Assembly: GCF_019091085.1 (NCBI RefSeq)
Contig: NZ_JAGXJY010000012.1
Coordinates: forward strand, 62,001-126,000
Origin: Mesorhizobium sp. GbtcB19
Lineage (GTDB): Bacteria; Pseudomonadota; Alphaproteobacteria; Rhizobiales; Rhizobiaceae
Length of the DNA: 64,000 nt
Direction of reading: 5' to 3'
This document shows positions 10,318-12,970 of this stretch, one piece after another. The notes beneath the pieces were generated by a model. It was not told where the DNA came from, made no database searches, and worked only from the letters and a program-made list of their open reading frames with translations. Both the position numbers and the translations under genes were made by a program. Positions within the stretch are counted from its first letter, which is position 1. Each line of letters begins with the position of its first letter.

Positions 10318-11928
10318 CTACTCTGCCGCTTCCTGCAGGCGCGGCGCCGCGCCCAGGATGGTGGCGTCGACGTGACGCTCGAACTTCTCGAAATTGGTCG
10401 CGAACATGTTGACCAGCTTAGAGGCCTGGCGGTCGTAACCGGCCTTGTCCGCCCAGGTCGAGCGCGGGTCGAGAATGGCGCCGTCGACGCCCGGAACCGC
10501 CACCGGCACCGCGAAGCCGAAATTGGCGTCGGTGCGGAACTCGGCCGATTTCAGCGAACCGTCGAGCGCGGCGCCCAGAAGAGCGCGCGTCACCTTGATC
10601 GGCATGCGGCGGCCGGTGCCGTAGGCGCCGCCGGTCCAGCCGGTGTTGACCAGCCAGCAGTCGACGCCGTGGCTGGCGATCAGCTCGCGCAGCAGATTGC
10701 CGTATTCGGACGGATGGCGCGGCATGAACGGCGCGCCGAAGCAGGTCGAGAACGTCGCCTCCGGCTCTGTGACGCCCTTTTCCGTGCCGGCGACCTTGGC
10801 GGTGTAGCCGGACAGGAAGTGGTACATCGCCTGCGCCGGTGTCAGCCTGGCGATCGGCGGCATCACGCCGAAAGCATCGGCGGTCAGCATGATGATGTTT
10901 TTCGGGTGACCGGCGCGGCCGGTCTTCGAGGCATTGGGGATGAAGTCCAGCGGATAGGCGCAGCGCGTGTTCTCGGTCAGGCTGCCGTCGTTGAAATCCG
11001 GCACGCGGCCGGCATCGAGCACGACGTTCTCCAGCACCGTGCCGAAGCGCTGCGTGGTGGCGAAGATTTCCGGCTCGGCCTCTGCCGAAAGCCTGATCGT
11101 CTTGGCGTAGCAGCCGCCCTCGAAATTGAAGATGCCGTGCGGACCCCAGCCATGCTCGTCGTCGCCGATCAGCGTGCGCGACGGGTCCGCGGAAAGCGTC
11201 GTCTTGCCGGTGCCGGACAGGCCGAAGAACACAGCGGCGTCGCCGTCCGGCCCCTCATTGGCCGAGCAGTGCATCGGCATGACGCCCTTTGCCGGCAGCA
11301 GGTAGTTCAGCATGGTGAACACCGACTTCTTCATCTCGCCGGCATAGGACGTGCCGCCGATCAGCACGATCTTGCGGCTGAGATCGACCGCGATCACGGT
11401 TTCGGTGCGGGTGCCGTGGCGCGCCGGATCGGCGCGGAAGGAGGGCAGGTCGATGATCGTCATGTCGGGGACGAAGCGCTCGAGTTCGGCGGCTTGCGGA
11501 CGGATCAACAGGTTGCGGATGAACAGCGAATGCCAGGCGAATTCGGTGACGACGCGGACCGGCAGCTTGAGGTCGGCGTCGGCGCCGCCAACCAGGTCCT
11601 GGACATAGAGATCCTTGTCCGCCGCATGGGCGCGGAAGTCGGAAAGCAATGCCTCGAACTGGGCGGGCGAGATCGCCTTGTTGTTGTCCCACCAGACATG
11701 CGGCTCGGTCGCCTCGTCGCGCACGACGAATTTGTCCTTCGGCGAACGCCCGGTGTGCTGGCCGGTCTCGGCGAGCAGGGCGCCCTGCGCGGTCAATCTC
11801 GCCTCGCCGCGCCGGATCGCTTCCTCGTAGAGTTCGGCCGCACCGAAATTGTAGCGCACCACGCCCGTGGTCTTCAGGCCGATCGCGTCAATCGCGCAGT
11901 CGGGGTTGCGTTTGCCGGCTTCCGACAT
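10318..11928 (-). CDS. pckA: phosphoenolpyruvate carboxykinase (ATP)
   Basis: The enzyme converts oxaloacetate plus ATP to phosphoenolpyruvate, the first gluconeogenic step during growth on C4-dicarboxylates. The 536-residue protein has the kinase-1a P-loop [11 protein letters not shown], the metal-binding region [10 protein letters not shown] and the substrate loop RCAYPLDFI, at full family length. The start at 11928 has GAGG eight bases upstream; the longer frame to 11955 lacks support. It is monocistronic with a clear terminator. Two LacI-type operator cores lie upstream, which fits control by PckR, the LacI/GalR-family regulator of pckA described in Sinorhizobium. PckR itself is not in the window. 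Confidence 0.97.
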
Positions 11929-12032
11929 CAAATTTCCTCTCTGGATTGGCCGCATCTGACGGGTGATTTCCCGGAGCCCGCGCTGGGGCTGCCAGGTTCA
12001 GAACCAGAAAAGCCGAATGATATCAAATCTTT

Positions 12033-12070
12033 AATCGATTTAAAAAATTTGAAAGTTGTTTAAATCGTTT
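12033..12070 (-). promoter_or_regulatory. pair of LacI/GalR-type operator cores upstream of pckA
   Basis: Two matches to the LacI/GalR half-site core AANCGNTT are present: AATCGATT at 12033-12040 and AATCGTTT at 12063-12070. Their centres are exactly 30 bp apart (about three helical turns), in an AT-rich island unlike the surrounding DNA. The longer inverted repeat CGATTTAAA (12036-12044) / TTTAAATCG (12059-12067) spans both. The sites lie about 105-142 bp upstream of the pckA ATG. The rest of the 340-bp pckA-chvI gap shows nothing else I can name. Confidence 0.6.
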
Positions 12071-12268
12071 ATATGTGCAAAAACCCATAGGGGTTGCCCA
12101 AAGGATTGGCAGGCTTCACTCGTCCAATCCCAATACGGGTGCGATCGTGTGTGACGGCAGGCCGCCCGTGACTTCGGACCGGGCCCGTGCCACATTTTGT
12201 ACCCAATTTGTCCTGCAAAAGCCCCTTCTCGACGACAGAAGGGACAGCTCATGAGGGAGCCGCTTGAA

Positions 12269-12970
12269 ATGGCAACAATCGCGCTTGTCGACGACGACCG
12301 CAACATTCTGACCTCGGTGTCGATCGCGCTCGAGTCCGAGGGCTATCGGGTCGAAACCTACACGGACGGCGCGTCGGCGCTGGAAGGCCTGGCGGCGCGG
12401 CCGCCGAACCTCGCCATCCTCGACATCAAGATGCCGCGCATGGACGGCATGGAACTGTTGCGCCGCATGCGCCAGAAGTCGGACCTGCCGGTCATCTTCC
12501 TGACCTCCAAGGACGACGAGATCGACGAATTGTTCGGCCTCAAGATGGGCGCCGACGACTTCATCCGCAAACCGTTCTCGCAGCGCTTGCTGGTCGAGCG
12601 GGTGCGCGCGGTGCTGCGCCGGACCAGCGCCCGCGAGGCGGCGGCCAAGGCGCCCACCCAGCAGGCCCGCTCGCTCGAACGCGGCCAGTTGGTGATGGAC
12701 CAGGAGCGGCATACCTGCACCTGGAAGGGCGAGCCGGTGACGCTGACGGTGACCGAGTTCCTCATCCTGCATTCGCTGGCGCAGCGCCCGGGTGTGGTAA
12801 AAAGCCGTGATGCGCTGATGGATTCGGCCTATGATGAACAGGTCTATGTTGACGACCGCACCATCGACAGCCACATCAAGCGGCTGCGCAAGAAGTTCAA
12901 GGCCGTCGACGACGACTTCGAGATGATCGAAACCCTTTACGGAGTCGGGTACCGGTTTCGAGAGGCGTGA
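12269..12970 (+). CDS. chvI: response regulator ChvI
   Basis: This OmpR-family response regulator of the acid/envelope-stress two-component system is essential for host interaction in many rhizobia. From the ATG at 12269 it has 233 residues: a receiver domain with phospho-acceptor D52 in [13 protein letters not shown], conserved K in FLTSKDD, and a winged-helix DNA-binding domain ending [15 protein letters not shown] and [11 protein letters not shown]. The start aligns with other ChvI proteins, which begin M[13 protein letters not shown]. An in-frame ATG at 12251 with AGGGA upstream would add six residues and cannot be excluded. chvG follows after a 147-bp gap filled by a repeat. Confidence 0.95.

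Follow-up and report, generated by a model that had tools for sequence, protein, structure and literature searches.

The closest described system is the double operator of Sinorhizobium meliloti and Ensifer aridi, where the motif TNNAANCGNTT of the LacI-family regulator PckR occurs at two sites upstream of pckA (PMC8877191, citing diCenzo); the locus studied here has the same gene, motif, number of sites and kind of regulator, in a different genus. The predicted PckR regulon includes pckA, zwf-pgl-edd, eda and mdh-sucCDAB (PMC4052901). PckR activates pckA in both Rhizobium leguminosarum and S. meliloti, and in a R. leguminosarum pckR mutant pckA is down and zwf is up (PMC11406972). Published accounts describe activation of pckA and fbaB, repression of zwf-pgl-edd and, in the presence of PEP, lowered expression of the genes with double sites (PMC8877191; PMC11406972). 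Cra/FruR of the enterobacteria is likewise a LacI-family switch between glycolysis and gluconeogenesis, one that PckR partially replaces in function, although it is found in other bacteria and is treated as a regulator separate from PckR (PMC4052901).

In the window (the whole stretch of 64,000 nucleotides that was analysed), pckA and a divergent chvI-type gene are separated by 322 bp, and a pair of predicted operators sits in the AT-rich middle of this intergenic region.

10318-11928, minus strand: pckA, phosphoenolpyruvate carboxykinase (ATP); NF006822, 1022 bits, cut-off 806 (scanned as 10318-11955)
12030-12043, no strand assigned: pckA-proximal predicted operator TTTAATCGATTTAA; core AATCGATT at 12033-12040, centre 108 bp upstream of the pckA start
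12060-12073, no strand assigned: pckA-distal predicted operator TTAAATCGTTTATA; core AATCGTTT at 12063-12070, centre 138 bp upstream of the pckA start
12251-12970, plus strand: chvI-type response regulator gene, divergent from pckA

The pckA start is the ATG at 11928, with GAGGAAAT ahead of it. Reading the sequence directly returned the two cores of the original prediction at the same coordinates, 30 bp apart from CG to CG. Both cores fit AANCGNTT and both extend to the symmetrical 14-mer TNNAANCGNTTNNA. As even palindromes with a central CG, TTTAATCGATTTAA and TTAAATCGTTTATA have the form of LacI/GalR-type operators, and both match the published PckR motif in both half-sites. On the pckA strand the distal core reads AAACGATT, and in the stack of pair-bearing pckA loci AAnCGATTTAAA. 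The AT-rich island claimed for the pair was borne out (GC of 0.20 in the lowest 60-bp interval, 12020-12079, and of 0.32 over 12000-12099). The pair had also been said to be in phase on the helix, which is nearly but not exactly so, 30 bp being 2.86 turns (at 10.5 bp per turn), some 50 degrees short of three.

Conservation of the pair was assessed in named genomes (the best 80 of at least 593 candidates), where pairs were sought within 350 bp upstream of pckA. Cores exactly 30 bp apart are present in 62 of these 80 loci, in 61 cases without an intervening core and additionally in L093. Spacings of 29-31 bp account for 68 of the 79 loci with enough upstream DNA (L061, with only 118 bp, was left out), the distance being 29 bp in L031, L038, L043, L075 and L089 and 31 bp in L049. 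The 11 exceptions among the 79 comprise eight with one core (six Roseibium/Labrenzia loci, Chelatococcus L090 and Kaistia L092), two without a core (Camelimonas L088 and Amorphus L095) and one with an 18-bp spacing (L091). Twenty dinucleotide shuffles of each of 81 pckA upstream regions produced no 30-bp pair. Absence of the motif from close relatives had been named as the observation that would tell against the prediction; the motif is present in them, every Mesorhizobium-titled locus among the best 80 of at least 593 having the 30-bp pair except that of M. ephedrae, which has a 29-bp pair.

The upstream regions were stacked in 62 rows (61 loci and the window) chosen by a looser core pair. 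Because only pair-bearing rows were taken, the core columns are fixed in this stack, as they are in a 20-row mdh stack. Columns that are free of this choice are conserved as well: all 62 rows have the A after the distal CG, 60 of the 62 have the proximal AATCGATT at its place, and the AT flanks are kept. On the pckA strand the consensus reads AAaCGATTTAAA, a spacer, TTTAAATCGATTAAt and then TTGAtaT, the last of these belonging to a block just downstream of the proximal operator.

12017-12029, minus strand: conserved block GATTTGATATCAT (consensus TTGAtaTnat in the pckA stack)

The TG of this block, likewise free of the choice of rows, is identical in all 62. The distance between the block and the proximal operator is constant, and the block is kept even in Rhizobium loci whose promoter is apparently different and more downstream.

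The genome has 22 matches to the LacI-type HTH. The PckR candidate among them, L117 (G000:C214:181421-182440), scores 37.5 bits for the LacI HTH against a cut-off of 27 and has a LacI-type ligand domain. When the LacI loci of three genomes were compared, it alone had close orthologues in Hoeflea (80%), Ensifer (77%) and Aurantimonas (70%); the next best locus, L116, has one, in Ensifer only (71%). The Ensifer and Rhizobium-like orthologues of L117 are 88-89% identical to each other, in line with the 89% reported between the PckR proteins of R. leguminosarum and S. meliloti (PMC11406972), which supports the assignment of L117 as PckR. L117 fits PckR, an indirect identification by orthology, drawn from sequence conservation rather than from a named reference sequence. 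Roseibium sediminis, with one core at pckA, has a best L117 relative of about 50% (L263). No core lies within 350 bp of pckA in Amorphus or in Camelimonas; the four LacI loci of Amorphus are only about 34% identical to L117, and Camelimonas gave no LacI matches. The start codon of pckR is apparently CTG in all eight of the genomes compared from the window's genus (L117, L215-L221), with GGGGAG or GGGAG ahead of it, and GTG, ATG or TTG in the seven other genomes compared. In L217 and L218, ATG, GTG and TTG are all absent between the upstream stop and this CTG.

Protein and pair were also compared across a draw of 151 genomes of the family, with an L117-type protein called at E 1e-100 or better and a strict pair pattern (AAMCGATT-N22-AAWCGATT) counted anywhere in the genome, not only before pckA. 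The protein is found in 140 of the 151. The strict pair occurs in 85 of these 140 genomes versus none of the 11 without the protein (Fisher p 7e-5), a comparison confounded by phylogeny; seven of the 11 are 2.0 Mb or smaller, so that the co-occurrence is supporting evidence only. The remaining 55 protein-bearing genomes are without the strict pattern, and its backwards control matched once in the family draw. A draw from the order (297 genomes) has the strict pattern in 15, namely 12 of 13 family members and three outsiders. None of the 62 outside-family genomes with a distant relative of L117 (E up to 1e-60, at most 53% identity) has the strict pair, and the three outsiders that have it are all without such a relative; the association of protein and pair is therefore shown for the family only.

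The 14-mer, of which there are 40 genome-wide, is found before the best copies of zwf, eda and mdh, that is before all three further predicted PckR targets tested, and is absent from the weaker second match of each search. It ends 74 bp before the profile match and 46 bp before the ATG of zwf (C215), and lies about 120 bp before the start of eda (C311) and about 145 bp before that of mdh (C630). A second, partial core accompanies it in this genome at 45 bp (zwf), 87 bp (eda) and 28 bp (mdh). The 30-bp pair itself, which the original prediction proposed to look for at other PckR targets, is not shared by these genes. At eda the full 14-mer adjoins a divergent trhO-type gene, and the partial match is about 30 bp upstream of the eda start. 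Whereas single sites are reported at zwf and eda2 of S. meliloti, each of the two genes here has one full 14-mer and one partial match, and a description of them as single-site genes was dropped.

The mdh region was compared in 30 loci, the best ones from a search of 61 genomes (the present one included) of which 59 gave a match. A core pair at exactly 28 bp is present in 21 of the 30 and at no other spacing, the remaining nine having one core or none; in shuffles such a pair arises 0.0017 times per genome. Just upstream of the distal mdh operator a near-palindrome, TTGACGTTTACGTAA, is conserved in most of the 20 stacked rows (e.g. L205, L266-L294) and shows a possible resemblance to the LiuR motif.

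Elsewhere in the genome the 14-mer TCTAATCGCTTAGA (L015:1501-1514 = G000:C111:432079-432092) lies about 130 bp before the gene for pyruvate dehydrogenase E1-alpha, and its TCTAA recurs, on one or other strand, in the zwf and mdh sites. The sequence makes pdhA a possible extra PckR target, as a single-genome lead; the main text of PMC4052901 does not name pdh. Besides the pckA pair, the 40 14-mers include one close pair, 22 bp apart (G000:C270:7279-7314). A LacI gene is nearby, and the 8-kb stretch that holds this pair contains three further 14-mers. This cluster probably belongs to a local operon with its own repressor.

The PckR interpretation, which the original prediction had based on Sinorhizobium, is well supported at the level of sequence by the 30-bp pair of most pckA loci, the encoded PckR-like protein and the 14-mers before zwf, eda and mdh. 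The best explanation of the whole is, with high confidence, that the pair is a PckR double operator at pckA, for which we infer the binding, the regulatory sign, the effector and the position of the promoter. PckR could not be identified from the motif by itself, since operators of the LacI family in general fit AANCGNTT and, of the 40 14-mers, at least four are within 200 bp of another LacI-type gene. That proximity and the number of LacI-type HTH matches in the genome would also suit the use of the pair by another regulator of the family, for instance a sugar repressor resembling ThuR or AglR, acting either by itself or as a competitor of PckR; in E. aridi, predicted ThuR motifs occur twice upstream of pckA and overlap the PckR motif (PMC8877191). 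Such a regulator is improbable here, given that close orthologues in Hoeflea, Ensifer and Aurantimonas were found for the PckR candidate only among the LacI loci compared, and that the motif is common to zwf, eda and mdh, all of them predicted PckR targets.

In 77 of the 80 loci (the best 80 of at least 593 candidates) pckA has a divergent chvI homologue upstream of it, and Brucella BvrR is reported to bind the pckA-bvrR intergenic region (PMC9491525). The pair might accordingly serve mainly chvI, or the conserved element might be a site for ChvI (BvrR) in the same intergenic region. Both sites, however, are closer to the pckA start than to the chvI start, the CG-centred palindrome is the shape of a LacI-family site (PMC4052901) and a similar pair is found at mdh; we regard a role centred on ChvI as very unlikely.

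Local motif counts were uninformative as a yardstick for sites, the 8-bp core being without enrichment in the window (9 found versus 11.7 expected). The window holds two copies of the 14-mer, both of them between pckA and chvI (0.38 expected), and two or more arose in 7 of 100 whole-window shuffles. When only the island was shuffled (12000-12099, n = 20,000), two cores appeared in 0.09% of cases and two 14-mers in none. Over the whole genome (6.72 Mb) the 40 14-mers are fewer than the 76 of a backwards-read control. A form of the core with AT-only flanks, WWWWAATCGATTWWWW, gave no matches. The decisive evidence is conservation rather than the local motif count: chance matches of a loose motif to AT-rich DNA, however well they agree with the unenriched core and with the whole-window shuffles, are refuted by the single spacing kept in 62 of the 80 loci versus none in shuffles, and their probability is negligible.

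Two candidates were found for the pckA promoter.

12006-12034, minus strand: candidate pckA promoter TTAAAG (12034-12029), 17 bp, TTTTCT (12011-12006); weak, by eye and by analogy with mdh
12017-12044, minus strand: alternative promoter-like match TTTAAA-16-TATCAT; consensus match (1 found versus 0.3 expected), overlapping the proximal operator

With the first, a weak proposal, the operator centres would be near -37 and -67. With the second, the proximal operator would lie between the promoter boxes. Rhizobium-type pckA loci have a different CTTG-N17-TANNNT further downstream (by eye, from the stack). A plausible mdh promoter in this genome is TTGAAT-N17-TATTCG, abutted by the proximal operator (by eye); it would give the mdh operators an activator-like placement, centred at about -38 and -66.

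For the PckR double operator we propose the following mechanism. PckR is a member of the LacI/GalR family that regulates central carbon metabolism globally in rhizobia and their relatives. Each palindrome would be bound by one dimer, such that the two dimers would sit side by side on nearly the same face of the helix, upstream of the pckA promoter or at its edge. Bound PckR would raise pckA transcription when gluconeogenesis is needed, transcription would fall once a glycolytic intermediate, which the published model takes to be PEP, had released the protein, and the same protein would repress zwf-pgl-edd and eda. A more tentative extension, less likely than not, is that PckR reads a spacing code: operator pairs about three turns apart (pckA 30 bp, mdh 28 bp) would activate, and wider pairs (zwf 45 bp and eda 87 bp in this genome) or single operators would repress. 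At the activated genes such a code would bring two dimers together on almost the same side of the helix, immediately upstream of the RNA polymerase. If it is true, it would be spacing rather than the number or strength of sites that decides between activation and repression throughout the family, and the mdh-suc operon, possibly with pdhA, would be ruled likewise.

Earlier reports place double PckR sites at pckA in Sinorhizobium and Ensifer, so the pair described here is another member of a known regulon. The Rhizobiales PckR regulon of Ravcheev et al. (2014), which includes Phyllobacteriaceae, shares pckA, zwf, eda and mdh as predicted targets; the text passages compared do not describe the 30- and 28-bp pair spacings (PMC4052901). 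The fixed 30-bp spacing, the 28-bp mdh pair and the possible pdhA site are likewise unmentioned in the text passages covered by the analysis, and no claim is made that they are unpublished. The notable detail of this known switch is the rigidly kept spacing of its operators.

Rhizobia inside nodules live on dicarboxylates. The regulator that switches these bacteria between sugar breakdown and gluconeogenesis has its operator pair confirmed here in a Mesorhizobium-like genome, and the separate, rigid spacings at pckA and mdh allow a direct test of the way in which a single protein of the LacI family may activate some genes and repress others.
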